A stretch of 64,000 bases of DNA, taken from NCBI RefSeq assembly GCF_004210375.1, contig NC_134831.1:46720035-46784034 (forward strand). Reading direction: 5' to 3'. Under the pieces are notes generated by a model. That model did not search any database. It saw only the letters and a list, made by a program, of their open reading frames with translations, and was not told the origin of the DNA. Positions 64-35,283 of this stretch are shown piece by piece. How positions within the stretch are numbered: the first letter of the stretch is position 1; each line of letters opens with the position of its first letter. The DNA is from Tachypleus tridentatus. Its lineage: Eukaryota > Arthropoda > Merostomata > Xiphosura > Limulidae. The position numbers and the translations under genes were made by a program.

Positions 64-297
64 ATCATTTGTCATCAAAGAAACCCGAAGTATCAAATAG
101 TTCTTCAACATACATCTCCGACCCGACTAGAGTCACAGACAGTCCGTTCTCAACTACCAGATCAGAAAATACATTTCAACCATCCAAGAACAGAACGGAA
201 GTAGTAATTTCTTCAAGAGACGAAAATGTTTTTAACACCACAATGCCAGTTGCTGATGATAATAGAACCATAGAACAAGAATCAACTTCACATAGAA
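64..297 (+). CDS. Exon A1, Ser/Thr-rich linker
   Basis: The exon lies between a polypyrimidine tract ending ATTAG and an AA|GTAAGT donor. It has 234 nt and is phase 1-1. The peptide is rich in Ser, Thr and Asn with sequons NSS, NRT, NTT and NRT and no cysteine, typical of an extended glycosylated spacer. It carries the DENV variant shared with A3. Confidence 0.75.
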
Positions 298-3200
298 GTA
301 AGTATGACACAATTAAACATTCAAACGTTCGGAACAACTTTGCGTTTTATAGTAATTGGCTACTATTAACAAATCTGAAATTTCATCGCGGTTTACGTAT
401 ATCTAAAAACATGATGGAGTTTTTTTTATATAGCAAATGTATTCATGACTCCACAAAAAGTAAAATTATATTGGAAAGTCTTTACATTTAGAGATGTGAG
501 TATGTTTTATTTATTTTTATTTTACCCTTTTAAGGTATCAGAACGACAACAATCGATCCATCCAAAGTGTGTCCTCCTCAAAACGGCAAATTTCCAGTTT
601 TTCTTCCTCATACTGAAAACTGCTCGTTGTACTATGTTTGTGATCATGGAATACCAAAATTAATGCGTTGCCCAGCTCCCCTTCACTTCAACCGAGAGCT
701 GAACGTATGTGACTATGAGTGGAGAGCTGGCTGTTCTACGAATGGTGAGCTTTAGGCCTTCTCTTCCTTTCCAGATCTTTTTCTTGGAAATTGAGGATCC
801 TGAGACAATTTTAACAAAACAGCAGAAGCTACTTTTCATTTGTTATCGTAAAGAACCCGATAAAAACATTTAAATTAAAAGAAACAATCAAAAAACGCGA
901 AACACGTTGATTTCACATAGTTTCTTTGAACCGTTTACAGTAATGCTAACCGCCGCTAGTACAGCGGTAAGTCTACGGACTTACAACTCTAAAATCAAGG
1001 GCTCCATTTTCCTCGGTGAGCTCAGCCGATAGCCCGATGTGGCTTTGCTATAACAAAACACACACACACACTAATTCTGTTCATAGCCTTACCCAACAAT
1101 GTATAATATATCTACACATTCACCCCAAAATATATTGAATTTCTATTCTTCCAACATACTCTATAAAATATCACACTATCTACAAAAACGGAATTTAAAA
1201 ATACTTTCTTATTCGTCAATGAAACTTTAAGGTTATTTTCTGACATATTTTTGTCGACAATGAATAAGTAAAACATAATGTTAATTTACATGAATTTTTT
1301 CAATATTAAATCACAAAAGAATGAATAAAAATATTCGAACACAAAAATCTCTCACAGAATAAAAAACAGAAAGGCCTGGATATCAATTATCAATTTATAA
1401 TTAACATGGAACTAAAATCGAAATGAATTGACAGTTTATTTTAAATAACATAAAATTAATGACACGTCAACTGCAGGTGTACGTGCTAAGAGTCAGTTTC
1501 AGCAACAAAGAACGTTGAAGAAAACATGGGAAAACATGTGACTACACCAAACAATTTTCAAGTGTTTTTTAGATCACAATAAAATCTCGTAGAACCTTTT
1601 CAATTGTTACAAGAACAAATTAATATGAAAACAATCTAAGAGTTCATTCGATCTTTCCATATGTCACGTTTTAAAACTGTCTTTATTTATCTGTTGACAC
1701 AAATGTTCTAAGCATCAATGTTACGCAAATACTTATACAATTATTTTAAAAGTATATATATTATCCTAACGTGCAATACATCGAAACGTCTTTTCGAAAA
1801 CAATATCTCATATTTTTAGAAAATTCAAAGTGTTATATAATATCGGTTATCGTATGAGTATGGTTTTGAGATGTCTTTTACGTACAGAGTAATCCTTCAC
1901 ACATATATATGCAGTACTGTCAAAAATATTCAACCTTAATGCCACGTCTTCCGAATTATTCCTTCGGCAAGATGTTTAACATAGCAAGGTAAGCGCGAAG
2001 TGTAAATCAGTGACAAATAAAAAAATCAAATAAGAGATCACCTTACGTTTATTGTTTTAAATATTCGTTCGATAACGTTACAAAACAATTTAATTAAGCG
2101 TGTCTAAGACACACCACTCTTAAAGACGATTGCGTGAAATACGATACTAATTCAGAATTTCTTTTCTCAATTAGATCATTTGTCATCAAAGAAACCCGAA
2201 GTATCAAATAGTTCTTCAACATACATCTCCGACCCGACTAGAGTCACAGACAGTCCGTTCTCAACTACCAGATCAGAAAATACATTTCAACCATCCAAGA
2301 ACAGAACGGAAGTAGTAATTTCTTCAAGAGACGAAGATGTTTTTAACACCACAATGCCAGTTGCTGATGATAATAGAACCATAGAACAAGAATCAACTTC
2401 ACATAGAAGTAAGTATGACACAATTAAACATTCAAACGTTCGGAACAACTTTGCGTTTTATAGTAATTGGCTACTATTAACAAATCTGAAATTTCATCGC
2501 GGTTTACGTATATCTAAAACATGATGGAGTTTTTTTTATATAGCAAATCTATTCATGACTCCACAAAAAGTAAAATTATATTGGAAAGTCTTTACATTTA
2601 GAGATGTGAGTATGTTTTATTTATTTTTATTTTACCCTTTTAAGGTATCAGAACGACAACAATCTATCCATCCAAAGTGTGTCCTCCTCAAAACGGCAAA
2701 TTTCCAGTTTTTCTTCCTCATACTGAAAACTGCTCGTTGTACTATGTTTGTGATCATGGAATACCAAAATTAATGCGTTGCCCAGCTCCCCTTCACTTCA
2801 ACCGAGAGCTGAACGTATGTGACTATGAGTGGAGAGCTGGCTGTTCTACGAATGGTGAGCTTTAGGCCTTCTCTTCCTTTCCAGATCTTTTTCTTGGAAA
2901 TTGAGGATCCTGAGACAATTTTAACAAAAACAGCAGAAGCTACTTTTCATTTGTTATCGTAAAGAACCCGATAAAAACATTTAAATTAAAAGAAACAATC
3001 AAAAACGCGAAACACGTTGATTTCACATAGTTTCTTTGAACCGTTTACAGTAATAATCAGTGAGACCCTAACCCGACTATAGAAATTCCCAGTAACCAGT
3101 TAGCAACCCTCATAGAATTCACCACGATAAAGACAAACTTCATGTTCAACAACCAAAACTATATACAAACAAATGGCCTAAGCATGGGCAACCCAGTATC

Positions 3201-6200
3201 ACCAGTTCTAGCCAATATTTTTATGACACAAGTTGAAACACATGCAATTAACACAGCATTACATCCACCATTATATTGGTACAGATATGTAGATGACACG
3301 GTTGCGGGATTCAAATTTACAGAACACATACTTAATTTTTTCAATCACATTAACTCTATACATCCCAACATCAACTTCACATGTGAACAGGAAGAAAACA
3401 AACAAATATCATTTCTTAACCTCAAAATTACAAGAACTGATACACAATTTCAAACAGAAATCCACCGAAAAATCACCCATACTGGACTATACATTCCTTG
3501 GGACTCAGCACATGAAACAAAACAAAAACTCAACATACTAAGAAACCAAATAAACACAGCCATAAAACTATGCTCACCAGATAAAATTAACCATGAATTA
3601 GACAAAATAAAACAATACTTCACCAACATCAATAAGTTTCCTCCACAAACCGTAGAAAACATTATACGCACACACCTAGACAGAAAGCAAAATCAACCAA
3701 CTAAAGTAAATACAGCTCACGAATCAAAACCACGAAACCACATACTGCTGTATACCATATATTCCTGACATCAGCAAACAAATAACCAACATTTGGCAAA
3801 ATTAGTAACAAAATATGACATTCAATTAATACTAAATTTATTCAAAAACCCGGCACAAAACTGAGGTCTATACTATGTAAAAACTACACTGACAAACACC
3901 ACACCAACATTATTTATAAAATACAATGTGATAACTGCCACGACTTCTATATTGGAGAAACAAGTAGAAAAATGGAAACCAGATTCAAAGAACATAAAAA
4001 GTCACCTTCACACGTTTTCGAACACTGCAAGTCAAATAAACACAACATAACCATAGAAAACACTCAAATACTAAATAAAGAAACAAACATAAACAAACGC
4101 AAAATTAAAGAAGCCTTACTTATACAACAACTTAAACCCATAATAAACCAATATAAAGGAACGCCTTTATACCTATATTAATAAAATAAATAAAATTATA
4201 TATTCAAACATCTAATACCGCCCTCTATATTTCGACACACAGTTACACAACCCCTTTCAAACATGTGGTGAGCATCCGGTCAGTTACCTCTTTCTTTGTG
4301 AACCTGACGATGACCGAAGAAGGTCGAAACGTTGTTCGCTCTTCTATGTAAAAGTGTTTTCTCAGCCAAAACGAGCCGTTTTTGCATATAAATTTCGTTT
4401 ACAGTGATGCTAACCGCCGCTCGTACAGCGGTAAGTCTACGGACTTACAACTCTAAAATCAAGGGCTCAATTTTCCTCGGTGAGCTCAGCCGATAGCCCG
4501 ATGTGGCTTTGCTATAACAAAACACACACACACACTAATTCTGTTCATAGCCTTACCCAACAATGTATAATATATCTACACATTCACCCCAAAATATATT
4601 GAATTTCTATTCTTCCAACATACTCTATAAAATATCACACTATCCACAAAAACGGAATTTAAAAATACTTTCTTATTCGTCAATGAAACTTTAAGGTTAT
4701 TTTCTGACATATTTTTGTCGACAATGAATAAGTAAAACATAATGTTAATTTACATGAATTTTTTCAATATTAAATCACAAAAGAATGAATAAAAATATTC
4801 GAACACAAAAATCTCTCACAGAATAAAAAACAGAAAGGCCTGGATATCAATTATCAATTTATAATTAACATGGAACTAAAATCGAAATGAATTGACAGTT
4901 TATATTAAATAACATAAAATTAATGACACATCAACTGCAGGTGTACGTGCTAAGAGTCAGTTTCAGCAACAAAGAACGTTGAAGAAAACATAGGAAAACA
5001 TGTGACTACACCAAACAATTTTCAAGTGTTTTTTTAGATCACAGGAAAATCTCGTAGAACTTCTACAATTCTTACAAGAAGAAATTAATTTGAAAACAAT
5101 CTAAGAGTTCATTCGATCTTTCCATATGTCACGTTTTAAAACTGTCTTTATTTATCTGTTGACACAAATGTTCTAAGCATCAATGTTACGCAAATACTTA
5201 TACAATTATTTTAAAAGTATATATATTATCCTAACGTGCAATACATCGAAACGTCTTTTCGAAAACAATATCTGATATTTTTAGAAAATTCAAAGTGTTA
5301 TATAATATCGGTTATCATATGAGTATGGTTTTGAGATGTCTTTTACGTACAGAGTAATCCTTCACACATATATATGCAGTACTGTCAAAAATATTCAACC
5401 TTAATGCCACGTCTTCCGAATTATTCCTTCGGCAAGATGTTTAACATAGCAAGGTAAGCGCGAAGTGTAAATCAGTGACAAATAAAAAAATCAAATAAGA
5501 GATCACCTTACGTTTATTGTTTTAAATATTCGTTCGATAACGTTACAAAACAATTTAATTAAGCGTGTCTAAGACACACCACTCTTAAAGACGATTGCGT
5601 GAAATACGATACTAATTCAGAATTTCTTTTTCTCAATTAGATCATTTGTCATCAAAGAAACCCGAAGTATCAAATAGTTCTTCAACATACATCTCCGACC
5701 CGACTAGAGTCACAGACAGTCCGTTCTCAACTACCAGAACAGAAAATACATTTCAACCATCCAAGAACAGAACGGAAGTAGTAATTTCTTCAAGAGACGA
5801 AAATGTTTTTAACACCACAATGCCAGTTGCTGATGATAATAGAACCATAGAACAAGAATCAACTTCACATAGAAGTAAGTATGACACAATTAAACATTCA
5901 AACGTTCGGAACAACTTTGCGTTTTATAGTAATTGGCTACTATTAACAAATCTGAAATTTCATCGCGGTTTACGTATATCTAAAAACATGATGGAGTTTT
6001 TTTTATATAGCAAATGTATTCATGACTCCACAAAAAGTAAAATTATATTGGAAAGTCTTTACATTTAGAGATGTGAGTATGTTTTATTTATTTTATTTTA
6101 CCCTTTTAAGGTATCAGAACGACAACAATCGATCCATCCAAAGTGTGTCCTCCTCAAAACGGCAAATTTCCAGTTTTTCTTCCTCATACTGAAAACTGCT

Positions 6201-9200
6201 CGTTGTACTATGTTTGTGATCATGGAATACCAAAATTAATGCGTTGCCCAGCTCCCCTTCACTTCAACCGAGAGCTGAACGTATGTGACTATGAGTGGAG
6301 AGCTGGCTGTTCTACGAATGGTGAGCTTTAGGCCTTCTCTTCCTTTCCAGATCTTTTCTTGGAAATTGAGGATCCTGAGACAATTTTAACAAAACAGCAG
6401 AAGCTACTTTTCATTTGTTATCGTAAAGAACCCGATAAAACATTTAAATTAAAAGAAACAATCAAAAAACGCGAAACACGTTGATTTCACATAGTTTCTT
6501 TGAACCGTTTACAGTAATGCTAACCGCCGCTAGTACAGCGGTAAGTCTACGGACTTACAACTCTAAAATCAAGGGCTCCATTTTCCTCGGTGAGCTCAGC
6601 CGATAGCCCGATGTGGCTTTGCTATAACAAAACACACACACACACTAATTCTGTTCATAGCCTTACCCAACAATGTATAATATATCTACACATTCACCCC
6701 AAAATATATTGAATTTCTATTCTTCCAACATACTCTATAAAATATCACACTATCTACAAAACGGAATTTAAAAATACTTTCTTATTCGTCAATGAAACTT
6801 TAAGGTTATTTTCTGACATATTTTTGTCGACAATGAATAAGTAAAACATAATGTTAATTTACATGAATTTTTCAATATTAAATCACAAAAGAATGAATAA
6901 AAATATTCGAACACAAAAATCTCTCACAGAATAAAAAAAAAGAAAGGCCTGGATATCAATTATCAATTTATAATTAACATGGAACTAAAATCGAAATGAA
7001 TTGACAGTTTATTTTAAATAACATAAAATTAATGACACGTCAACTGCAGGTGTACGTGCTAAGAGTCAGTTTCAGCAACAAAGAACGTTGAAGAAAACAT
7101 GGGAAAACATGTGACTACACCAAACAATTTTCAAGTGTTTTTTAGATCACAATAAAATCTCGTAGAACCTTTTCAATTGTTACAAGAACAAATTAATATG
7201 AAAACAATCTAAGAGTTCATTCGATCTTTCCATATGTCACGTTTTAAAACTGTCTTTATTTATCTGTTGACACAAATGTTCTAAGCATCAATGTTACGCA
7301 AATACTTATACAATTATTTTAAAAAGTATATATATTATCCTAACGTGCAATACATCGAAACGTCTTTTCGAAAACAATATCTCATATTTTTAGAAAATTC
7401 AAAGTGTTATATAATATCGGTTATCGTATGAGTATGGTTTTGAGATGTCTTTTACGTACAGAGTAATCCTTCACACATATATATGCAGTACTGTCAAAAA
7501 TATTCAACCTTAATGCCACGTCTTCCGAATTATTCCTTCGGCAAGATGTTTAACATAGCAAGGTAAGCGCGAAGTGTAAATCAGTGACAAATAAAAAATC
7601 AAATAAGAGATCACCTTACGTTTATTGTTTTAAATATTCGTTCGATAACGTTACAAAACAATTTAATTAAGCGTGTCTAAGACACACCACTCTTAAAGAC
7701 GATTGCGTGAAATACGATACTAATTCAGAATTTCTTTTCTCAATTAGATCATTTGTCATCAAAGAAACCCGAAGTATCAAATAGTTCTTCAACATACATC
7801 TCCGACCCGACTAGAGTCACAGACAGTCCGTTCTCAACTACCAGATCAGAAAATACATTTCAACCATCCAAGAACAGAACGGAAGTAGTAATTTCTTCAA
7901 GAGACGAAGATGTTTTTAACACCACAATGCCAGTTGCTGATGATAATAGAACCATAGAACAAGAATCAACTTCACATAGAAGTAAGTATGACACAATTAA
8001 ACATTCAAACGTTCGGAACAACTTTGCGTTTTATAGTAATTGGCTACTATTAACAAATCTGAAATTTCATCGCGGTTTACGTATATCTAAAAACATGATG
8101 GAGTTTTTTTTATATAGCAAATCTATTCATGACTTCACAAAAAGTAAAATTATATTGGAAAGTCTTTACATTTAGAGATGTGAGTATGTTTTATTTATTT
8201 TTATTTTACCCTTTTAAGGTATCAGAACGACAACAATCGATCCATCCAAAGTGTGTCCTCCTCAAAACGGCAAATTTCCAGTTTTTCTTCCTCATACTGA
8301 AAACTGCTCGTTGTACTATGTTTGTGATCATGGAATACCAAAATTAATGCGTTGCCCAGCTCCCCTTCACTTCAACCGAGAGCTGAACGTATGTGACTAT
8401 GAGTGGAGAGCTGGCTGTTCTATGAATGGTGAGCTTTAGGCCTTCTCTTCCTTTCCAGATCTTTTTCTTGGAAATTGAGGATCCTGAGACAATTTTAACA
8501 AAAACAGCACAAGCTACTTTTCATTTGTTATCGTAAAGAACCCGATAAAAACATTTAAATTAAAAGAAACAATCAAAAAACGCGAAACACGTTGATTTCA
8601 CATAGTTTCTTTGAACCGTTTACAGTAATGCTAACCGCCGCTAATACAGCGGTAAGTCTACGGACTTACAACTCTAAAATCAAGGGCTCCATTTTCCTCG
8701 GTGGGCTCAGCCGATAGCCCGATGTGGCTTTGCTATAACAAAACACACACGCACAGTAATTCTGTTCATAGCCTTACCCAACAATGTATAATATATCTAC
8801 ACATTCACCCCAAAATATATTGAATTTCTATTTTTCCAACATACTCTATAAAATATCACACTATCTACAAAAACGGAATTTAAAAATACTTTCTTATTCG
8901 TCAATGAAACTTTAAGGTTATTTTCTCTCATATTTTTGTCGACAATGAATAAGTAAAACATAATGTTAATTTACATGAATTTTTTCAATATTAAATCACA
9001 AAAGAATGAATAAAAAATATTCGAATACAAAAATCTCTCACAGAATAAAAAACAGAAAGGCCTGGATATCAATTATCAATTTATAATTAACATGGAACTA
9101 AAATCGAAATGAATTGACAGTTTATTTTAAATAACATAAAATTAATGACACATCAACTGCAGGTGTACGTGCTAAGAGTCAGTTTCAGCAACAAAGAACG

Positions 9201-12200
9201 TTGAAGAAAACATAGGAAAACATGTGACTACACCAAACAATTTTCAAGTGTTTTTTAGATCACAGGAAAATCTCGAAGAACTTCTACAATTCTTACAAGA
9301 ACAAATTAATATGATAACAATCTAAGAGTTCATTCGATCTTTCCATATGTCACGTTTTAAAACTGTCTTTATTTATCTGTTGACACAAATGTTCTAAGCA
9401 TCAATGTTACGCAAATACTTATACAATTATTTTAAAAATTATATATATTATCCTAACGTGGAATACATCGAAACGTCTTTTCGAAAACAATATCTCATAT
9501 TTTTAGAAAATTCAAAGTGTTATATAATATCGGTTATCGTATGAGTATGGTTTTGAGATGTCTTTTACGTACAGAGTAATCCTTCACACATATATATGCA
9601 GTACTGTCAAAAATATTCAACCTTAATGCCACGTCTTCCGAATTATTCCTTCGGCAAGATGTTTAACATAGCAAGGTAAGCGCGAAGTGTAAAATAGTGA
9701 CAAATAGGAAAATCAAATAAGAGATCATCTTACGTTTATTGTTTTAAATATTCGTTCGATAACGTTACAAAACAATTTAATTAAGCGTGTCTAAGACACA
9801 CCACTCTTAAAGACGATTGCGTGAAATACGATACTAATTCAGAATTTCTTTTCCTCAATTAGGTCATTTGTCATCAAAGAAACCCGAAGTATCAAATAGT
9901 TCTTCAACATACATCTTCGACCCGACTAGAGTCACAGACAGTCCGTTCTCAACTACCAGATCAGAAAATACATTTCAACCATCCAAGAACAGAACTGAAG
10001 TAGTAATTTCTTCAAGAGACCAAGATGTTTTTAACACCACAATGCCAGTTGGTGATGATAATAGAACCATAGAACAAGAATCAACTTCACATAGAAGTAA
10101 GTATGAGACAATTAAACATTCAAACGTTTGGAACAACTTTGCGTTTTATAGTAATTGGCTACTATTAACAAATCTGAAATTTCATCGCGGTTTACGTATA
10201 TCTAAAAACATGATGGAGTTTTTTTTTATATAGCAAATGTATTCATGACTCCACAAAAAGTAAAATTATATTGGAAAGTCTTTACATTTAGAGATGTGAG
10301 TATGTTTTATTTATTTTTATTTTACCCTTTTAAGGTATCAGAACGACAACAATCGATCCATCCAAAGTGTGTCCTCCTCAAAACGGCAAATTTCCAGTTT
10401 TTCTTCCTCATACTGAAAACTGCTCGTTGTACTATGTTTGTGATCATGGAATACCAAAATTAATGCGTTGCCCAGCTCCCCTTCACTTCAACCGAGAGCT
10501 GAACGTATGTGACTATGAGTGGAGAGCTGGCTGTTCTACGAATGGTGAGCTTTAGGCCTTCTCTTCCTTTCCAGATCTTTTTCTTGGAAATTGAGGATCC
10601 TGAGACAATTTTAACAAAAACAGCAGAAGCTACTTTTCATTTGTTATCGTAAAGAACCCGATAAAAACATTTAAATTAAAAGAAACAATCAAAAAACGCG
10701 AAACACGTTGATTTCACATAGTTTCTTTGAACCGTTTACAGTAATGCTAACCGCCGCTAGTACAGCGGTAAGTCTACGGACTTACAACTCTAAAATCAAG
10801 GGCTCCATTTTCCTCGGTGGGCTCAGCCGATAGCCCGATGTGGCTTTGCTATAACAAAACACACACACACAGTAATTCTGTTCATAGCCTTACCCAACAA
10901 TGTATAATATATCTACACATTCACCCCAAAATATATTGAATTTCTATTTTTCCAACATACTCTATAAAATATCACACTATCTACAAAAACGGAATTTAAA
11001 AATACTTTCTTATTCGTCAATGAAACTTTAAGGTTATTTTCTGACATATTTTTGTCGACAATGAATAAGTAAAACATAATGTTAATTTACATGAATTTTT
11101 TCAATATTAACTCACAAAAGAATGAATAAAAAATATTCGAACACGAAAATCTCTCACAGAATAAAAAACAGAAAGGCCTGGATATCAATTATCAATTTAT
11201 AATTAACATGGAACTAAAATCGAAATGAATTGACAGTTTATTTTAAATAACATAAAATTAATGACACATCAACTGCAGGTGCACGTGCTAAGAGTCAGTT
11301 TCAGCAACAAAGAACGTTGAAGAAAACACACGGAAAACATGTGACTACACCAAACAATTTTCAAGTGCTTTTTAGATCACAGGAAAATCTCGAAGAACTT
11401 CTACAATTCTTACAAGAACAAATTAATATGAAAACAATCTAAGAGTTCATTCGATCTTTCCATATGTCACGTTTTAAAACTGTCTTTATTTATCTGTTGA
11501 CACAAATGTTCTAAGCATCAATGTTACGCAAATACTTATACAATTATTTTAAAAATTATATATATTAAACTAACGTGCAATACATCGAAACGTCTTTTCG
11601 AAAACAATATCTCATATTTTTAGAAAATTCAAAGTGTTATATAATATCGGTTATCGTATGAGTATGGTTTTGAGATGTCTTTTACGTACAGAGTAATCCT
11701 TCACACATATATATGCAGTACTGTCAGAAATATTCAACATTAATGCCACGTCTTCCGAATTATTCCTTCGGCAAGATGTTTAACATAGCAAAGGTAAGCG
11801 CGAAGTGTAAATCAGTGACAAATAGGAAAATCAAATAAGAGATCACCGTACGTTTATTGTTTTAAATATTCGTTCGATAACGTTACAAAACAATTTAATT
11901 AAGCGTGTCTAAGACACACCACTCTTAAAGACGATTGCGTGAAATACGATACTAATTCAGAATTTCTTTTCCTCAATTAGGTCATTTGTCATCAAAGAAA
12001 CCCGAAGTATCAAATAGTTCTTCAACATACATCTCCGACCCGACTAGAGTCACAGACAGTCCGTTCTCAACTACCAGATCAGAAAATACATTTCAACCAT
12101 CCAAGAACAGAACTGAAGTAGTAATTTCTTCAAGAGACCAAGATGTTTTTAACACCACAATGCCAGTTGGTGATGATAATAGAACCATAGAACAAGAATC

Positions 12201-12660
12201 AACTTCACATAGAAGTAAGTATGACACAATTAAACATTCAAACGTTCGGAACAACTTTGCGTTTTATAGTAATTGGCTACTATTAACAAATCTGAAATTT
12301 CATCGCGGTTTACGTATATCTAAAAACATGATGGAGTTTTTTTTATATAGCAAATGTATTCATGACTCCACAAAAAGTAAAATTTTATTGGAAAGTCTTT
12401 ACATTTAGAGATGTGAGTATGTTTTATTTATTTTTATTTTACTTTTTAAGGTATCAAAACGACAACAATCGATCCATCCAAAGTATGTCCTCTTCAAAAC
12501 GGCAAATTTTCAGTTTTTCTTCCTCATACTGAAAACTGCTCGTTGTACTATGTTTGTGACCATGGAATACCAAAATTAATGTGTTGCCCAGCAACCCTTC
12601 ACTTCAACCGAGAGCTGAACGTATGTGACTATGAGTGGAGAGCTGGCTGTTCTACGAATG
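64..12660 (+). CDS. Multi-CBM14 (peritrophin-A) mucin-like gene, partial, 12 exons in six tandem units
   Basis: This is inferred to be a secreted chitin-binding protein of a matrix, cuticle or mucus layer. Twelve exons alternate A (78 codons, Ser/Thr-rich linker) and B (70 codons, CBM14): 64-297, 535-744; 2175-2408, 2645-2854; 5641-5874, 6111-6320; 7748-7981, 8219-8428; 9863-10096, 10335-10544; 11981-12214, 12451-12660. Every A ends AA|GTAAGT, every B starts after TTTTAAG and ends G|GTGAGC. All exons are phase 1-1, so any A-B order stays in frame and the six modules give 888 codons. Exon B has six cysteines spaced x16, x5, x9, x12, x7, the peritrophin-A pattern. Signal peptide and start lie left of the window, and I found no terminal exon to the right. 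It could be a peritrophin, a chitin-binding mucin or a cuticle-associated protein; expression is not shown by sequence. Confidence 0.8.
535..744 (+). CDS. Exon B1, CBM14 chitin-binding domain
   Basis: The exon has 210 nt, phase 1-1. Cysteines fall at exon residues 13, 30, 36, 46, 59 and 67, with aromatic residues Y33, Y34, F52, Y61 and W63 at positions typical of the peritrophin-A fold (CSLYYVC, LHFN, CDYEW). It is a complete single domain of the usual ~55-residue length. Confidence 0.88.
945..1071 (+). mobile_element. tRNA-derived SINE, family B, unit 1 copy
   Basis: The head has tRNA-like features (CAGCGGTAAG, then a GGCTC-type B-box region) and the tail ends in a CA repeat. Better copies at 24.1 and 35.2 kb keep GGTTCGATTCC, a canonical B box. 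Flanking TAATGCT and TAATTCT look like a target-site duplication. Confidence 0.75.
2175..2408 (+). CDS. Exon A2, Ser/Thr-rich linker
   Basis: Same structure as A1, with the DEDV variant that is shared with A4. The splice sites are intact. Confidence 0.75.
2645..2854 (+). CDS. Exon B2, CBM14 domain
   Basis: Six-cysteine CBM14 exon almost identical to B1; one nucleotide difference upstream of the domain changes IDPSK to IYPSK. The following intron carries the Penelope-like insertion, which leaves the exon and its GTGAGC donor intact. Confidence 0.88.
3064..3768 (+). pseudogene. Penelope-like reverse transcriptase, C-terminal fragment
   Basis: An open frame runs from the truncation point to a stop at 3766. 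It shows the motif NGLSMGNPVSPVLANIFM, then WYRYVDDTVAGF (the catalytic YVDD box), then FLNLKI. These are palm motifs of Penelope-type reverse transcriptases. The fingers and upstream palm are missing. The same frame continues past the stop with family-like sequence to 3864, so the stop is a decay mutation. The copy cannot be autonomous. Confidence 0.88.
3819..4181 (+). pseudogene. GIY-YIG endonuclease region of the Penelope-like element
   Basis: The frame is shifted relative to the RT. It reads a zinc-binding-like CDNC pair followed by FYIGETSRKMETRFKEHKK, the YIG half and the conserved arginine of GIY-YIG nucleases, and ends near a conserved Glu (KEALLIQQLKP). The GIY half appears as NIIYKIQC. 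The domain is known to supply DNA cleavage in endonuclease-bearing Penelope elements. It is split from the RT by a frameshift, so it is a relic. Confidence 0.82.
4298..4339 (+). ncRNA. Hammerhead-ribozyme-like motif (Penelope 3' tail)
   Basis: Core pieces occur in order: stem I strand GTGAAC (4298-4303), CTGACGA (4304-4310, fits CUGANGA), an unpaired T, stem II GACC/GGTC around a six-base loop (4312-4325), GAAACGTT (4326-4333), and closing strand GTTCGC (4334-4339), which pairs with GTGAAC with one G-T wobble. Stem III is almost absent. Hammerhead motifs in Penelope-like elements are established knowledge; activity of this copy is not shown. Confidence 0.72.
4409..4535 (+). mobile_element. 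SINE family B, unit 2 copy
   Basis: Same insertion as in unit 1. The Penelope-like element sits directly upstream of it. Confidence 0.75.
5641..5874 (+). CDS. Exon A3, Ser/Thr-rich linker
   Basis: Same splice sites and phase as A1 and the same DENV variant. It has one private change, TTRTEN in place of TTRSEN. Confidence 0.75.
6111..6320 (+). CDS. Exon B3, CBM14 domain
   Basis: Complete six-cysteine domain whose peptide is identical to B1. It uses the same TTTTAAG acceptor and GTGAGC donor. Confidence 0.88.
6519..6645 (+). mobile_element. SINE family B, unit 3 copy
   Basis: Orthologous within the array to the unit 1 insertion. Confidence 0.75.
7748..7981 (+). CDS. Exon A4, Ser/Thr-rich linker
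   Basis: Same structure, with the DEDV variant shared with A2. The splice sites are intact. Confidence 0.75.
8219..8428 (+). CDS. Exon B4, CBM14 domain
   Basis: Complete six-cysteine domain. It has one private replacement after the last cysteine, CSMN instead of CSTN. Confidence 0.88.
8630..8755 (+). mobile_element. SINE family B, unit 4 copy
   Basis: Same insertion. The CA tail is interrupted by a G. Confidence 0.75.
9863..10096 (+). CDS. Exon A5, Ser/Thr-rich linker
   Basis: The acceptor is ATTAG|GTC rather than ATTAG|ATC, so the junction codon reads Gly instead of Asp. Variants DQDV and PVGDD are shared with A6. YIFD replaces YISD. Confidence 0.72.
10335..10544 (+). CDS. Exon B5, CBM14 domain
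   Basis: Complete six-cysteine domain with the B1 peptide. Splice sites are intact. Confidence 0.88.
10746..10871 (+). mobile_element. SINE family B, unit 5 copy
   Basis: Same insertion. It is the last unit that carries it. Confidence 0.75.
11981..12214 (+). CDS. Exon A6, Ser/Thr-rich linker
   Basis: Carries the same Gly junction codon, DQDV and PVGDD variants as A5. Splice sites are intact. Confidence 0.72.
12451..12660 (+). CDS. Exon B6, divergent CBM14 domain with an extra cysteine
   Basis: Last recognisable module and the most diverged. CPLQNGKFSVF replaces CPPQNGKFPVF, and LMCCPATLHF replaces LMRCPAPLHF, which adds a seventh cysteine next to the fourth conserved one. All six framework cysteines, the acceptor and the GTGAGC donor remain, so the exon looks usable. 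Confidence 0.82.
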
Positions 12661-13145
12661 GTGAGCTTTAGGCCTTCTCTTCCTTTCCAGATCTTTTTCT
12701 TGAAAATTAAGGATTCTGAGACAATTTTAACACAAACAGCAGACGCTTCTTTTCATTTGTTATCGTAAAGATCCCGATAAGATAATTTAAAGTAAAAACA
12801 AAGTAACAACGCAACACACGTTGATTTCACATAGCTTGTTTGAACCATTTACACTTATGCTGTTCATAGTGTTACACAACTGTTTACGATATATCTGTAC
12901 ATTTACATGAAAAGTATACTGAATTTCTATTCTTCTAAGACATTTTATGAAATATTACATTTTTTACAGAAACGGAGGTTAAAAATACTTTTCCCTTTTC
13001 TTATTCGTTTGTGAAATTTTATGTTTAGTTTGTAACATATTTTTATCGGCAATAAGTAAGTAAAACTTAATATTAATTAACTTATTTTTAAAGATGGTAT
13101 CCGAAAACAAGCAATAAAAAATAATTATTCTTGAAAAATCTCTCA

Positions 13146-13962
13146 CGGAGGTTTAACGTCGTTATTATTGTTTTAATATTCTAAACTTTAACAAGATGTA
13201 GCTAATATTTGTCATTCTCATTTTCACTACTTTTCCATTTTTAACTATCTATAAGTCTTATGTTTCAAAGAAATTTCTGTCATCAAAATTGCCTACATAT
13301 AACAAGGTTTCCGTAATTCCCGTTATGTTAAAATTTTCTGTTCGACCAGTGCTCTTTCTTAAACCATTTTTTCTTGTTATTTTTTAATATTTCTAGCAAT
13401 ACATTAATAACTGTTTGGCCCACCGTTAAAATTACGTATGTGCTTTGTTTTTACATTGTGCCTTTTCCTTCACATTTTACCTTGATTATATGTATTTATT
13501 GTTTAAATCTTCCCTTACGAATTCGATAGTATCTCTTTTTTGAAAATGTAAAAGATTATTTTACTGATACAGCTTGTTAATGAGGTTTGTTACTTTTTAT
13601 GTTTATTTATTTTTTAGTGTAAATATGCAAAAATAGTATTTGTAGTGATTGTTAAAGGAACAACTAAAATCTTATGATATAGCTTACCTTTGATTTTCGT
13701 TTTGTTGTATAGGTCGTTGATCGCTCCTCTGTGTATGGAAGACTGTAACTGATTGTAGGCAAATGCAACTAAAATGACAGTTAGGTTAAGTCAAATAAAT
13801 ACGTATTAGCTGAAAGTATATTCCATCTGTGTTTTGGTTTTCTATAATGGTTGATTTTACTTTCTGTATAAATCGGCAAAGCTCTGAATGTTTGTAAAAA
13901 AATGTAATATTTCGTCTCTTTATTTCAGTTTTCTTCTCATGATAGATATGGCTCGATACATG
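13146..13962. other. AT-rich stretch, no gene seen
   Basis: I see no long open frame, tRNA or recognised repeat. It may be the intron or 3' flank downstream of exon B6; a terminal exon of the CBM14 gene could be hidden here but I cannot point to one. Confidence 0.5.
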
Positions 13963-14262
13963 CTTTAAAAGAAAATAATGAATTGCCTTATTGTCCTTGC
14001 GTATATCAGAATTTCGGTTTTATTCACATCTAATTGATTATATATATAGATATGTATATAACATTTAACTCTTTATTTCCTTCTTTTACAAAATAAATTA
14101 AAAATTAGTTCGCTTTAAAAGAAAATAATGAATTGCCTTATTGACTTTGCATTTATCAGACGTTCGGTTTTATTCACATCTAATTGATTATATATATAGA
14201 TATGTATATGACATTTAACTCTTTATTGCCTTCTTTTACAAAATAAATTAAAAAACTAGTTC
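13963..14262 (+). repeat. Tandem duplication, 2 x 150 bp
   Basis: The segment beginning GCTTTAAAAGAAAATAATG at ~13962 recurs 150 bp later with a few substitutions. Each copy holds a short TATATATAGATATGTATAT run. Confidence 0.85.
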
Positions 14263-15502
14263 TAAAACGTATATTTCAATTTGAAATAATTTGTATCTAT
14301 TTGATTATTTATACTTTTTCTTATTATTTTATATTTCTTTTCTTCATTTTACTAAGTAAATATTAAAACAGATAGTAAAGAATAACGTTTCTAACATTTT
14401 GAAAGTTAGGCCAACGTAAGTCAGAGCTGGTGTTTGATACGAACAACCACGACTTTTTGATCAGTGACCAAATTTATTGAATAAGCATTTGAAGATTGAT
14501 CTCTGTTATAAGGCTTTACAATGTTAATAAAACGAAACTTTGTTACTGTACTGTATTTAATAATAATAGAAATATTTCTCACTTTAATAAAGTATTCTTG
14601 AATTATTGATTGGTTCGTTAATATCAATTGTGTTTAACGCAAACTGAAGCTTATTACGAGATATTTCTGTTAAGGTAAATAAAATGACGATCTATACCTT
14701 CACAATGTATATTTATTAGTTCAGTATTTCTCTTTAAAAGCTTCATCAGATATCCTACAAGTTTACAAGTGATTCCGAAGTTTGGTCTTGTAAGTCCGTA
14801 AACTTGTTGCTGACCAATGAGGAATTTGATTTATAGAATATCTTTTAATAGAGGACTGAGTACGTTATATTAAAACGATTTTGAATAGGCAAAGCAATAA
14901 TTCACATGATAGTCATAGCCGATATAAAATCTCCGTGGAACAGGATCAATCAGAACTATATTTTGACATAGTTTGGTGTTACTTAAGTAATGTTGTGTCA
15001 CTGAAAACCTATTGCTTTTGTGAAGAGTATGTAACAGCTCTTTCAAACACAAGATATTCATTCTCTTAGATCATGAATATTTGTTCATATTTTGGGTTTA
15101 GACTTTTCAAAACTGAAATATCCTGTGTTTTTAATGACATTAGAAAATAAGTGAATATTAATCAAATTAGGGTATCAGGACCATTAATAACAGGAATTGC
15201 AACAAGTTGTACTCCAGCCTTGATACGTAACATGCGGAATTTTATAACAGTTGAAAATCCACAAACAGAAAATCAGTGACAAAAGCCATTCACCCAGAGA
15301 GCACAACGCAACATTGTCTAAAAATATATCCGATTAGAAAAGCAACACAAATTGCCTCTACGACACATCTATTTAGCCTTTCATACCTCAAGCATCTAAA
15401 GAAATGAAGGGTATTCATACCATTCTATATGGAAACATGTTGATTTCTGTGCAATCGGATTGTGTAAACGAACACTTATAAACCTTTGGCTTTGTACACT
15501 AA
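14263..15502. other. AT-rich stretch, no gene seen
   Basis: Only short open frames on both strands (60-68 codons), none with a recognisable domain or splice context. Confidence 0.5.
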
Positions 15503-15734
15503 GGGCCCAGCGTGGCCAGGTGGATAAGCACTTGACTCATAATCCGAGGGTCGTGGGTTCAAATCCCCGTCTCTTTAAAACATACTCGCCCTTTCAGCCG
15601 TGGGAGCGTTATAATGTATCGGTCAATCCCACTCTTCGTTGATAAAAGAGTAGCTCAAGAGTTGGCAGTAGGTGGTAATGACTAGCTGCAGATAGCCCTC
15701 GTGTAGCTTTGCGCAAGATTCAAAATCAAACAAT
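15503..15734 (+). mobile_element. tRNA-derived SINE, family A, internally deleted
   Basis: The tRNA-like head begins GGGCCCAGCGTGGCCAGGTG and has a TCAAATCC B-box variant. The body (CCCTTTCAGCCGTGGGAGCG, GTCAATCCCACT) is diagnostic of this family. It skips from ACTAGCTGC directly to AGATAGCCCTC, an internal deletion. Confidence 0.85.
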
Positions 15735-15844
15735 TGTACACTAAGTGTATTACTACGAAGCTGGAGTAGAATGCTTTTGATGCTAACCTTACGATGGAAC
15801 ATTTGCTTTAAAATCATACTCCTTTGTTATTTGGTCATCTGGAG

Positions 15845-15950
15845 AGTAAGCGATAAGTTTATGGACTTATAACAATAAAATCCGGGATTCGATTACTTGC
15901 GTTGGATATAGGGTACATGAACCATTGTGTAGCTTTGTTCTAAAACAGTG
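15845..15950 (+). mobile_element. Degenerate SINE family B
   Basis: Spaced similarity to family B: GCGATAAGTTTATGGACTTA, then a GGATTCGATT B-box remnant, then GTGTAGCTTTG. Old copy. Confidence 0.5.
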
Positions 15951-16400
15951 ACATCTATGCTCGAAAAAAAATTTTACACAAAAGTATAGAAATGTTAAAA
16001 GAAACCACGCATGCTTAGTTAATACTGTGATTTATTTTACTGTCTATTGTTTAAGTACATATAGAATTTCGCCTGGTTCCTAATTACTGAAATTAGATCA
16101 CGAAATCTTTTCTGAGAAGATGGATACTATTCTGTAGTAAATAATCAAACAATTGACATGGAAGTTGGTTGATTATGCTCTTCTATCATCCAATCAATAA
16201 AGCATAATATTATTCAAACCGTCACAACGTATATACTATACTATGGCTTTTAATATAGTAAAAAAATTCAGTCAAGATTCGTAATCAATTTTATGTTTAT
16301 TTCCAGTTGTAAATATATTTTTCGAAATCTTTAATTTATATTGAGTATAATTTCTCAAATAAATGTTCATAAATCATCATATAGTTTCATCACGTAAATA
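15951..16400. other. AT-rich stretch, no gene seen
   Basis: Nothing recognised on either strand. Confidence 0.5.
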
Positions 16401-16926
16401 CAGTGGAGCGCCGTTAAGCCGCGGTATTTGGGGGGTCAACCTGCTTAACCGCGGCTTAAGTGGTCCGCGGCTTAAACCTTTGTGACTGAAAAGCCGAAGT
16501 CGCCAACAGCTCCGCCGAGGAGCCTCATCCGGGCCATTATGTGATCATTATATCGGATTATCGAATTAAAAATAATACTTTAATTATTGATCACTTTTTT
16601 TCATGGATTTACCGCGGATTAACTTTAATGTATGGAGAGGCGTGATTCGGTAACAATGGCGGCCTCCATAAAGCTGACAAAGAGAGCGGATAAGGTAGAT
16701 TAACGGTCGATTTCTATTGTAATATATTTTATTTATTTCCCAAATTAAAACAAATCATTTTTAAATATCCCCTTGAAGTTATAAAGCCAGGATTAAATTC
16801 GTAAGCCGCGTTTTTACACGTTCTTAAATTAGCGGTGAGCCGCAATAATCCTCGCTCACAAGACTTGCTACAACGGCTTAAGCGATTTCGCGGTTTACTG
16901 GTCCGCGGCTTAATGGTGCTCCACTG
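16401..16926. mobile_element. pogo/Tigger-like MITE, 526 bp
   Basis: It begins CAGTGGAGCGCCGTTAAGCC and ends with the inverse, GGCTTAATGGTGCTCCACTG, flanked on both sides by TA. Imperfect terminal inverted repeats with a CAGTGG start and TA duplication fit the Tc1-mariner/pogo group. There is no transposase frame inside. The GC-rich ends (repeated CCGCGGCTTAA) stand out from the AT-rich surroundings. Confidence 0.8.
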
Positions 16927-17164
16927 TATTTGGTGAACGACTTTCCAGTGTCACGACGTCACTTTCAGGATGCGCTGGTAGAAAATGTATCATTCAAGAT
17001 TGTTTCCAATGGACATGCTTGCTTGAGAAATTAATTTGGCCACGGTATTGAGATACTATAACATAAAGTTTATAAGTGTAAAGGCTCTATAGCACGTTTT
17101 AATGATTATCTATATATATATATATATACGTTCTTATACAGTAACGTGTTTCTGCAGGAGAGCA

Positions 17165-17362
17165 TTCGCGCAAACTTCATGAGGGCTATCTACACGAACC
17201 GTCCATAATTTAGTAGTGTAATATTAGAAGGGCCTTCAGCTATTCATTATTATCCACCGCCAACTCTTAGGCTATTCTTTTATCAATTAAAAGTGGGATT
17301 GATTGTCACTTTATAATGCCACCATGACTGAAAGGAGAGCATGTTTGGTGTCACGGGGATTA
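17165..17362 (-). mobile_element. SINE family A, partial
   Basis: Reverse-strand body (GAGGGCTATCT, CCGCCAACTCTTAGGCTA, TTTGGTGTCACGGGGATT). It lacks the tRNA head beyond the B box. Confidence 0.8.
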
Positions 17363-19640
17363 AACGACCAAAAACAGAACTAAAAGAGTTAAAAAAAAAC
17401 TTAAATTTAATAGTAAAATTATGTCTAATACATCAAAGAGAATTTTCATTTGTTTTACGTTACATTATGAGGACTTCCAGTAAAGAAAAAAGAAACTTAA
17501 GATTGTTCAAACCATTTTGAATTTAAACTCCACAGAAGGTGATAATCACTATAAATGAGCTATAAAAGTTACTTGTTGACAACATCTCCATGTAAACCTA
17601 AAACATCTAACCAAAGTAAAGGATTCTTCGTTGCACAATTTACTGACAAAAATATAGAATTAGCTAGTTTATAATCTGTTGTTCGGAATAATTCCATACA
17701 TCAGTTATTTTCACAAATACAACTGAAGCACACTATCTTGATATAAACACTGCTGCTATCAATAACATATTCTTATACAAGGTTTACGATAAAACACAAT
17801 ATTTTAATTTTAAAGCTATATATTTTCCCAGCATAAACATCCAAAAGAGAATACGTTTTAATAATGGCCAATCACAACTCATTAGATATGATAAAATTTG
17901 TTCTAATTTGGAAGATTTTAAAAGGTTCGAACGCCAAAACATAAACTTTTTAGTAGCGATTTTTTATTTCGATAGATTACTAACGTCATTTTCTTTAATT
18001 GATAGTAAGCACAATTCATTTCTAACTGAAACATATAGCAGTGGCAAAACGATTTCACAAATTAAGAAAAAAAACAATGAATTGTACATAACTTTATTTT
18101 TACAAAAACCTAATCTTTTCATCTTTCAAAATTATTATTTTATTCAACTACATTTTGTAGTGTAAGTTATGTGAAGTCAAAATTTTTTCAAGTTGCTGTC
18201 GTTGATTCAATATAATTCATATAATTAGCATAATTATTACAGAATGTGAATGACTTTCTTCAAAATAAACATATATACCCCAACACAAACCTAAGCATTT
18301 AACCCTTTTCAGATACTGATAATTACATTAAATTCCACCAACATTTATGCTGGGTTAATCGTTTAGCCCTGGATGGACTATGCCTAAGTGTAGATCACAG
18401 AATCAACATTTTTTGTAGGATATCAATAAGTTTCTTCATCCTAAAGTAACCTACTTCTCCATCACAAGTCTAAGCTTTTATCGCACATAAGGAATTGAAA
18501 CGTCTGTTATTCTTGACTTTTCTTAAATTCTATACACAGTTTTCTTAAATCACCTTTCCACTTTCTGGAACTTGTCTCTTTTTGATTTTTCTTTAAGTCT
18601 TTTTTCAAGACTGGCTGTTGAGCAGACTCACTTTAACAAAGTTACCTTTAAACGCTAGTGGATTAAACAAGGCTTGAACAGTTGCACAAGAAGTCATATA
18701 CACACATGATGTGTTATTGTTTCATTGAACATGTAGAACATAAGACATAAGTTTATACGTGCTGGTGTACTTTAGAGTATTAATTTTACTAAATTCAATA
18801 TCTATTTTAATTACTTATGGTCCTTGATTAATTTAATATACAATATTAACGTTTTTAATATTAATAATTACATTGACTAAATAAGCTTGCTACTTGAAGC
18901 TTCACATGAGACAATTCATTTTCAGTGATTAAGTGCTTAGTAATTAGCTAAGTAAGCCTAGCCATTATTTAATGGCTCTTGGGACAAAAGCCATTAACAC
19001 CGCTAACAGCGCGAATAGCCAACTGATGACCTGAAGCACAGTAATCAAATACGCTTTTTATGGTTTGTCTGTTACTCATAATTAAGGCTATTTGACATTA
19101 ACTGTATTTTCATTGCAGATTTTTAGCAACTCTTCTGGTAAAAATTATCAAGAATAGTGTAAGACAAAATCGTTTTTACACATTGCTTTTATTGAATATT
19201 AGCATACACAATATTACTTCAGTCTAGAGTTTCTCAATAGTAAATAGTTGTGTAGAAATGTATTCGTGAGAATAAAAACATGATATATTGTTATTCAAAT
19301 AGCACATTTTGGAAGGTAACCTTTTTTAACAACGTCTTTTTTACTGGTAAATTGCAGATATGGCTACTTACCTTATGTTCTATAACTATTCTAAGTGGAG
19401 CTGTAAATCAGATATTACTATTCTATTAGGATGTAACCTAAAAGATGACACTGAGTACTGTTGACTAGCTATCTTCTCTGTAGTCTGTCCTTTCACTGTT
19501 TGGAACGGATAGTACAGATACACCTCGAAAAATTATGCGTGAATACCTTATAAAAACTAGAGTAGAAACTCGTCTAAATGCCCTATATAGCAAGGTTCCC
19601 TTAATATCCAAAATGAGCCATGAAAAGCCGGGTTCCATAT
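17363..19640. other. AT-rich stretch, no supported gene
   Basis: The longest open frame (17908-18165, + strand, 85 codons) is AT-rich with no domain or splice context. Nothing else is recognised. Confidence 0.5.
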
Positions 19641-19920
19641 TGTTTGTTTGTTTTGTTTTGAATTTCGCGCAAAGCTACATGAGGGCTATCTGCGCGAACC
19701 GTCCCTAATTTAGAAGTGTAAGACTAGAGGGAAAGCAACTAGTCATCACCATCTACCACCAACTCTTGGGCTACTATTTTACCAACGATTAGTGGGATTG
19801 GCTGTCACATTATAATGCCCACATGGTTGAGAGGGTGAACATGTATGATGTGACAGAGATTCGAATCCGCGAACCACAGATTGCAAGTCGAACGCACTAA
19901 CCACCTGGCCATACCGAGCA
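19641..19920 (-). mobile_element. SINE family A, near full length
   Basis: Reverse-strand copy from the TGTTTGTTTG tail (19641) to the tRNA-like head at ~19910. The B box reads as GATTCGAATCC in reverse. Confidence 0.88.
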
Positions 19921-21450
19921 TGGTTTTATATTGACTGGTGCTAACTTTTTGAATTTTAAGGCATCCCATTTTGTTTCGTTGAGTTATGCGTTGCCATGAC
20001 ATGGAGTGTTGTCAACAGGAGGTCTCAATGGGTGGAGTAGCTGTGTCCCTTTTTCTTTACTTTTAGTCTCAAATTACTTCTCTTCAGAGTTTTAACTGCT
20101 AAACGTTTCTCACTTATTTTCTGCTTTTATTTTACTTATAACGACTGAAGTAAAAAATCTGCTGAATATAATCAAATCATCTCTTGTGTCATTAGACTGT
20201 TTACATGACACTGTAATACGATACTCTCAAGAGAAACAATGAACATTCATAAAAATAAGTCGGTTTGGTTCCTTCTCAGAGAACACGATGTGGAATTTAT
20301 AAGCTTATGTAGCATACAGTATTTTAAAAGAATTCCCCAGACTCATAATAGTACACTTTGAATCTGTGACAACATCGCAAGTGTTTAAATATTGATCATT
20401 CTTTTGATGGGATATGTGAAATTCAGCGGTGTATCATACAAGCATACAAAGATAACTGCCAGTTTTGTTGAGTTCCTGCATAGAGAAGAGGACTAAAGAC
20501 ACTGCCCTTAATCCTGAATATTGAGGTGTCCGTTATTGCAAAATTAATTTTGGTTACAAAAGAAAGTGACTGAAAACGTCTGCCCTTAATGATATGGTGC
20601 CCATTGTTTCGAAATGTTTTTTAATCAAAGTTCTACTGTATATGCAGTTGCTTAGGGTTCTTGAAAATGTTCTGTTTCAAGAGCAGGTGAAAGCAAAATT
20701 AATAGTAACAAATATTTTTATTTCTTGCTCTTGAAGTTTATATGTCATGCTGTTTTGAAGCCTACAGAGTTCATAATTCTTCTAGTTTTTCATAGCATGC
20801 GCACGTTTTACTGACATCACGACTGAACAAATTGTAACGTTAAATGTCCCTTATATAAAGTCATTTTAATGTCTTTTGACTAATTGACGGATAACACATT
20901 ACAATCACTACCGTATAGTGCTGAGAATAGCTAAAATAAGTGGCACCTTTAAGGAGCCTCCAGCCTCCTTTCGGAAAAACAATCTTCTGACTGACTATGA
21001 TGTAAATTTGAACGGATTAAGTAGGTTCTGGTATTATAAGCAAACACTGTCCAATCAGTTCACCTTTCAGTAATTTCAAATATTTAAAGATAAAACTGTC
21101 TAATCATATTAAACACTTTATTTGTTTTCGTTAAATACAGATTAAAGTAGTCCTCAATTTATTTAAACTTTTACGTTAAAATTTTGAGCATCACATTTCC
21201 AAGATGATTACGGAAGATGTGAGTAAAAATTTGACAATGAACCAGAATTTTTCAATAAGTTATTAAGGGGTTGATGTATAACAATTTTATTTACAATATA
21301 CAGACTTGTTAAATTTTTTAGATGTTAAATTTTTCTGATGAATCAAAATATTGTGCGTGTTTTTTTTTCGATTTGCAATGCAATGTAAATGTAAAGTTTA
21401 AGATACAAACCTAACAATTAAAAAACAGCAAAAATATGTCGTGATACAGT
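19921..21450. other. Intergenic stretch, no gene seen
   Basis: No gene or family repeat recognised. A short GC-richer inverted element, AAGGAGCCTCCAGCCTCCTT, lies near 20952. Confidence 0.5.
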
Positions 21451-24110: not shown

Positions 24111-24232
24111 CCCCCGCTGAGACAGCAGTAAGTCTTCGGATTTACAACGCTAAAATCAGGGGTTCGATTCCCCTCAGTGGACTCAGTAGACAGCCGAATG
24201 TAGCTTTGCTATAAAAAAAAACATACACGCAC
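24111..24232 (+). mobile_element. SINE family B, intact B box
   Basis: CCCCGCTGAGACAGCAGTAAG head, GGGGTTCGATTCCCCT B-box arm, TAGCTTTGCTATAA body and an A-rich/CA tail. It is one of the best family-B copies and supports a tRNA origin. Confidence 0.85.
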
Positions 24233-24452
24233 TTTCAGACCTAGAAGAAATAGCAACGAAAACAAATGTATGACTTATTATTGTCATTTTCGATGTCTTT
24301 CAACGCTTATGAGTTATTTTTTAATTATTTTGGTCGTTGTTGTTTGTTTTCTTTTGTTACTTTTGGGAAATTTTCATTGTCCACAATACTTTTAAACTGT
24401 ACATAATTAGTTACCAAAGAGATTTGAACTTGTTTAGTTTTACAACCTTTTA
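24233..24452. other. Gap between SINE copies
   Basis: AT-rich sequence with nothing recognised. Confidence 0.4.
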
Positions 24453-35159: not shown

Positions 35160-35283
35160 GGCCACCCGCTCGTACAGCGGTAACTCTACGGATTTATAAC
35201 GCTAAAATCAGGGTTCGATTCCCTTCGGTAGGCTCAGCAGATAGCCCGATGTGTCTTTGCTATAAGTAAAAAACACACACACA
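35160..35283 (+). mobile_element. SINE family B
   Basis: CCACCCGCTCGTACAGCGG head, GGGTTCGATTCCC B-box arm, AGATAGCCCGATGTG body and CA-rich tail. It lies ~450 bp upstream of the USP32 start codon. Confidence 0.85.

Follow-up and report, generated by a model that had tools for sequence, protein, structure and literature searches.

Results

A tandem array of linker and CBM14 exons

The window, i.e. the whole stretch of 64,000 nucleotides of Tachypleus tridentatus DNA that was analysed (C7:46720035-46784034, in an assembly of 2.17 Gb and 205 contigs), opens with a tandem array. The original prediction was of six units, each with a linker exon (exon A) and a CBM14 exon (exon B), and all six were found, starting at window positions 1, 2114, 5579, 7687, 9801 and 11919. 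The unit length is ~2.11 kb; unit 2 measures 3465 bp because of an insert at 3055-4395, which we take to be a Penelope-like element. The five further copies are 95.5-99.5% identical to unit 1 (1-2113), and the similarity of unit 6 to the array ends near 12861. The features of the array and its 3' flank are as follows (window coordinates).

64..297, + strand: exon A of unit 1, Ser/Thr-rich linker; 234 nt, AG/GTAAGT, phase 1-1
535..744, + strand: exon B of unit 1, CBM14; 210 nt, AG/GTGAGC, phase 1-1; PF01607, E=5e-14
953-1070, 24111-24233 and 35166-35283: copies, 80-85% alike, of a presumably SINE-like repeat; the first lies in intron 2 of the units
2175..2408, + strand: exon A of unit 2
2645..2854, + strand: exon B of unit 2, CBM14
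3055..4395, + strand: insert in intron 2 of unit 2; RVT_1, E=6.6e-09 for 3064-3765 (3' part of a reverse transcriptase)
5641..5874, + strand: exon A of unit 3
6111..6320, + strand: exon B of unit 3, CBM14
7748..7981, + strand: exon A of unit 4
8219..8428, + strand: exon B of unit 4, CBM14
9863..10096, + strand: exon A of unit 5
10335..10544, + strand: exon B of unit 5, CBM14
11981..12214, + strand: exon A of unit 6, the 3'-edge unit
12451..12660, + strand: exon B of unit 6, the last CBM14 of the array
12851..13078, + strand: leftover piece of intron 2 from an older unit (76% identity), following unit 6
13618..13810 (end approximate), + strand: possible but weak 3'-terminal exon; acceptor rich in pyrimidines, phase 1 to Val-stop, AATAAA 176 nt on

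The exon lengths of 234 and 210 nt, flanked by AG/GT, are present in all six window units, neither exon containing a stop codon; because the reading frame enters and leaves each exon with one codon base, both are phase 1-1, as had been claimed. Exon A has no Pfam match, whereas exon B matches CBM_14 (PF01607, the peritrophin-A domain) with 52.6 bits against a cut-off of 22.1. The cysteine spacing of exon B, 16-5-9-12-7, fits CX11-17CX5CX9-14CX11-12CX6-7C, a pattern made by merging two ranges given in the consulted portion of a peritrophin study (PMC7663561); the first gap of 16 exceeds the narrower X11-15 range given there by one. Among solved structures, the best five matches by sequence are three chitinases, a 25 kDa polyphenol-binding protein and tachycitin (E 3.6e-06 to 1.9e-05). 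Serine and threonine make up 31 of the 90 linker residues, and each unit has five N-glycosylation motifs, of which all but one lie in the linker, the fifth being within the CBM14 domain.

A scan for the six-cysteine pattern, which would miss a domain split by an intron, found no CBM14 between 12660 and the end of the window. Within 8 kb past the last exon B there are six loose acceptor candidates (five at 12691-13946, one at 20067), none of which gives a convincing 3'-terminal exon; the acceptor at 13618 would be the likeliest, given its pyrimidine tract and a downstream AATAAA. Searches for tRNAs and against Rfam were empty, as was a phage collection search of window 12000-20000.

Several other features of the window were noted. 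An exon-like ORF at 37575-37859 (Pfam USP32_N, E=1.3e-06) is perhaps part of the next gene downstream, and an ORF at 54391-54780 has no Pfam match. LINE-like remains lie at 45789-47154, with an Exo_endo_phos_2 match at 46738-47151 (E=3.5e-08) and no Pfam match for 45789-46058. There are also a 147-bp unit in four copies (39445-40035, 99% matches) and a perfect tandem duplicate of a 100-bp unit (63154-63353).

Two runs of units, each ending at a gap

A genome search with exon B gave 27 places (27 candidates, all scored), all of them on the same chromosome, C7, and in two runs. The plus-strand run comprises 15 places (46697484-46732695) and the minus-strand run, which is inverted and 3.4 Mb from it, comprises 12 (43268431-43294508). 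Thus, the units of the six-unit array are real, but the array is far longer than was proposed and the window holds only its 3' end. Sequence amounting to 160 kb around both runs was examined. The minus run is here termed P, i.e. P00, which has a diverged exon B, followed by P01-P11; the plus run is termed D (D01-D15), with D10-D15 in the window. Two units are partial, i.e. P11, which is cut by a gap, and D15, in which similarity is lost after about 943 bases.

Run D begins directly at a gap of 500 N (46696187-46696686), and run P ends directly at another (43267781-43268280). The far sides of both gaps constitute another repeated region at contig ends. Comparison of these far sides (C7 46660035-46696186 vs 43230001-43267780) gave 22 matches at E up to 1e-20, with 79-94% identity and several of 1-2 kb; 20 of the 22 are in the orientation expected if the segment between the gaps is turned and two in the opposite one, and their order is scattered. 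As a reference, aligning the 5' flank with the 3' flank at a stricter cut-off of 1e-30 yielded 16 matches, shorter than these and about 290 bp at most. The far-side matches lend weak support to a turned segment.

The two runs have complementary ends. Upstream of P00 lies a first coding exon (C7:43295369-43295639, 271 nt of CDS) with a hydrophobic start (Kyte-Doolittle 2.47 over 11 residues) followed by a CBM14 domain, which ends in phase 1 at a GT and has a single match in the genome, upstream of run P. Exon B of P00 and then the A and B exons follow in the same phase, and a model joining the two 5' exons to one unit gives three CBM_14 stretches (E = 2.9e-34). The 799-base 3' flank after D15 (window 12862-13660) likewise matches at full length only once (40 of 476 candidates scored); of the other scored matches, 23 lie inside the arrays and cover bases 1-262 or 1-288 of the flank, which represent an old copy of the intron of the unit, and the remaining 16, elsewhere, are partial. 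Both runs together thus have one beginning (the 5' exon) and one end (the 3' flank), and P and D would come to lie head to tail if the segment between the gaps were turned. These features suggest that the assembly probably cut one array and set the segment between the gaps the wrong way round.

Two CBM14-like cysteine patterns were also seen upstream of the gene on the P side (L042, 8259-8426, minus strand; L043, 8581-8748, plus strand); they are alike each other and unlike the array, and perhaps reflect a local CBM14 gene cluster.

Homogenization and collinearity of the units

The proposal that the array was homogenized recently is borne out: interior units differ from one another by 0.7-0.9% on average, and their introns are almost as similar as their exons. 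Among the interior full units (P01-P10 and D01-D12), two units of P are on average 0.93% apart in substitutions, two of D 0.73% and one of each 0.85%; because the between-piece distance matches the within-piece distances, the P and D units form one pool. Over the 24 full units, pi is 0.0083 for exon A, 0.0059 for exon B and 0.0103 for the intron, the closeness of intron to exon diversity being what whole-unit exchange predicts. The most diverged units tend to be those at the edges, i.e. P00 and D13 to D15.

The insert in window unit 2 occurs at an identical site in six of the 24 full units (P04, P07, D03, D07, D08 and D11). The scattered placement of the insert-bearing units implies that units were copied after the insertion and then rearranged by further exchange or conversion. 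Downstream of the reverse transcriptase match, the insert in unit 2 has an ORF (3819-4178) without a Pfam match, which, from its motif, we presume to be a GIY-YIG endonuclease; the insert lies close to the 5' border of the SINE-like repeat.

The nearest D units of P02-P07 are, in order, D01, D02, D03, D04, D05 and D07, at 2.3-3.3 substitutions per kb. In a chain test of this P02-P07/D01-D07 collinearity, which left out P11 as partial and for which the threshold and gap cost were set after the distance table, none of 5000 shuffles of unit order reached the observed chain score (10.2, vs a shuffle mean of 3.5 and maximum of 8.5). Beyond the chain the order is less clear, P08 being nearest to D06, P09 to D05 and P10 to D07. 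There are no identical P-D unit pairs, so that P and D are not one allele read twice, unless the substitutions are also errors. The collinearity is consistent with overlapping alleles that differ in unit number and order or, equally, with a duplicated block of five to six units.

Reading frame and differences between units

The original prediction that gain or loss of whole units 'never breaks the frame' holds, but not every copy outside the window is in frame as assembled. Splice dinucleotides are kept in all 26 units. Exon A is 234 nt in 18 of the 26 and 233 nt in eight (P01, P05 and D01-D06), and exon B is 210 nt in 24, with P03 at 207 (in frame) and P09 at 209. As assembled, 17 units are in frame in both exons and nine carry a 1-nt deletion; frameshifted copies were analysed as assembled, none being mended.

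The 1-nt exon losses fall in runs of five T. Of the 24 full units, the mean number that vary at a given run of four is 0.27 for the 37 such runs in introns and 0 for the 5 in exons; at a run of five it is 4.36 for the 14 in introns and 4.50 for the 2 in exons. D13 and D14 have no run deletion, with one and two insertions, respectively (the 1-nt gap of D13 at unit position 54 lies outside the counted runs), and the interior unit D09 has no run-length change at all. The frameshifts probably stem from homopolymer errors in the consensus of a repeat that is beyond polishing with short reads.

Comparison of codons among the 26 units, leaving out the first, split codon of exon A (at which D14 and D15 differ), gave 5 synonymous and 18 nonsynonymous variants, where the ratio for all single-base changes is 295:961, i.e. 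no excess of silent changes between the units. Constraint is invisible between units, as expected if nearly all of the variants are young and also if constraint is absent. In the 3'-edge unit the exon differs less than the intron (8/210 vs 24/200, p = 0.003), a comparison confounded because divergence rises towards the array edge. At the 5' edge, any greater conservation of exon B of P00 over its intron falls short of significance (17/209 vs 19/170 differences, p = 0.38); in 193 nt compared with the unit, this exon has base differences of which 4 are synonymous and 9 nonsynonymous, with the six cysteines kept. Given the lack of a silent excess, the confounded comparison at the 3' edge and the p value at the 5' edge, we do not claim purifying selection.

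Discussion

A probable single gene cut by the assembly

The reading that we favor, and in which we have good though not complete confidence, is that of one gene for a large secreted CBM14 protein, the array of which has been cut by the assembly, with P as its misplaced 5' part. The gene would start with the exon coding for the signal-peptide-like sequence and a CBM14 domain, followed by the diverged CBM14 exon and then by n repeats of exon A and exon B, with n no lower than 15 on one of the pieces, and no lower than 26 should the two pieces join end to end. Because every exon boundary seen is phase 1, splicing through would add 148 residues per unit. The shared insert, the similarities between units and the diverged edge units show that units were copied; whole 2.1-kb units, introns included, have been multiplied and homogenized, most simply by unequal crossing-over and/or gene conversion, a mechanism that we infer from these patterns. 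The valency of the protein may change between alleles. The inverted array 3.4 Mb away is best seen as the upstream portion of this gene, put in the wrong place during scaffolding.

It could instead be that recombination maintains the repeats, but that frameshifted modules lead to at most a short protein or none, a degenerate array that we consider unlikely. It would account for the 1-nt deletion in eight of the 26 copies of exon A and one of exon B and for the want of a silent excess; five-base runs vary alike in exons and introns (4.50 vs 4.36), with no constraint on exon length visible, and since the deletions of P01 and P05 are not beside a contig end and D09 is unchanged, a pure polishing artefact is alone insufficient as an explanation. 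However, leaving aside the insert and a single 3-nt deletion, the listed indels are of 1 nt and mostly in homopolymers, and the jump in intron-run variation from 0.27 to 4.36 between run lengths 4 and 5 is the mark of a long-read consensus that has not been polished. D13 and D14, the distinctive units at the edge, are without run deletions, six of the eight exon A deletions are in D01-D06, the units beside the contig end, and, indels aside, there is no stop, with the splice sites kept in 26/26 units.

The assembly can also be taken literally, since the order it gives is one of two real arrays, the gene having a second, inverted copy at a distance of 3.4 Mb. That each run stops at a 500-N gap, one run having a 5' end but no 3' end and the other the reverse, with each of these ends matching fully once, makes such a duplication very improbable, as does the orientation of 20 of the 22 far-side matches, although these are not all in one order. 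Least credible of all is a tandem series of separate small genes, in which each unit encodes its own secreted CBM14 protein. Where the donor after exon B goes unused, a stop follows as the fourth codon in all 26 units, which could end the transcript; against this, a phase-1 donor follows every exon B and one signal-peptide-like exon, with a single match, heads the array. Scanning of one unit, D10, found no plausible signal-peptide exon, the one phase-1 ATG-to-donor candidate lying largely in the SINE-like repeat and having a hydrophobicity of 1.46 vs 2.47 for the first coding exon.

Within the single-gene reading, P and D may be two alleles of one animal, already differing in unit number and order, such that the array is a live coding VNTR; we regard this as a real possibility, while leaning slightly against it. 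If it is true, the chitin-binding valency of each individual, and the length of a giant secreted protein, would be set by a VNTR.

The predicted protein

In the gene model, the first exon contributes 90 residues, P00 70 and each unit 148, giving, with the last exon excluded, a predicted protein of about 2,400 residues with 15 units or about 4,000 with 26, and 17 to 28 predicted CBM14 domains. By family, the predicted product would be a complex-peritrophin-like CBM14 protein. It likely coats or cross-links chitin via many modules on flexible, perhaps glycosylated spacers, to judge by analogy; such a role is proposed for complex and repetitive peritrophins in the consulted portion of PMC7663561. 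The protein could gain or lose whole binding modules, like the kringles of human apolipoprotein(a).

The number of CBM14 domains varies among multi-domain peritrophins (PMC7663561), and the growth of such arrays is usually seen only long after the fact. The array described here is possibly a visible intermediate of such growth, with exon-pair units together with their introns, transposon-marked copies, diverged edges and a possible allelic length difference. It also serves as a warning that chromosome maps fail at such arrays, the gene here being seemingly cut in two and ~3.4 Mb turned.

Comparison with known systems

Complex peritrophins have at least three chitin-binding domains (CBDs) and a mucin domain, and the CBDs of one peritrophin tend to cluster together, not by species, with 1-24 CBDs cited for Bombyx mori (PMC7663561, in the portion consulted). 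The predicted protein would be like these in its many CBM14 domains and Ser/Thr-rich stretches. It differs in that the exons and introns of its gene are nearly identical in DNA sequence from unit to unit, in its strict two-exon unit and in its 17-28 predicted domains. Tachycitin (PDB 1dqc) matches exon B over 41 residues (E = 1.9e-05); unlike the exon B array, it is one small chain, with 74 residues in the entry.

The ingredients of the array are each known; their combination appears to be new. A homogenized CBM14 exon array was not described in the titles and abstract openings of the papers listed by the literature searches, and we do not claim its absence from print. Most likely, the locus is a single CBM14 gene with a VNTR-like array of coding exons.

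By analogy, the closest known system would be the human LPA KIV-2 repeat, which the array appears to resemble in mechanism and not by homology. In the consulted portion of PMC11462820, KIV-2 is described as encoding each domain by a pair of exons (about 160 and 182 bp) in a 5.6-kb unit, with 1 to about 40 units per allele and proven polymorphism. Both systems have two short exons per unit of several kb with introns, near-alike units and the addition (here predicted) of whole modules to one protein, and both, as far as that portion of the source goes for KIV-2, lie in regions that evade conventional sequencing. The proteins are unrelated, the domain being CBM14 and not a kringle, and the unit is of 2.1 kb as opposed to 5.6 kb; moreover, exon B alone holds the domain, with exon A as a linker, whereas in KIV-2 two exons make one domain. 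If P and D are indeed alleles, then the horseshoe crab array would be a counterpart of LPA, with CBM14 replacing the kringles.
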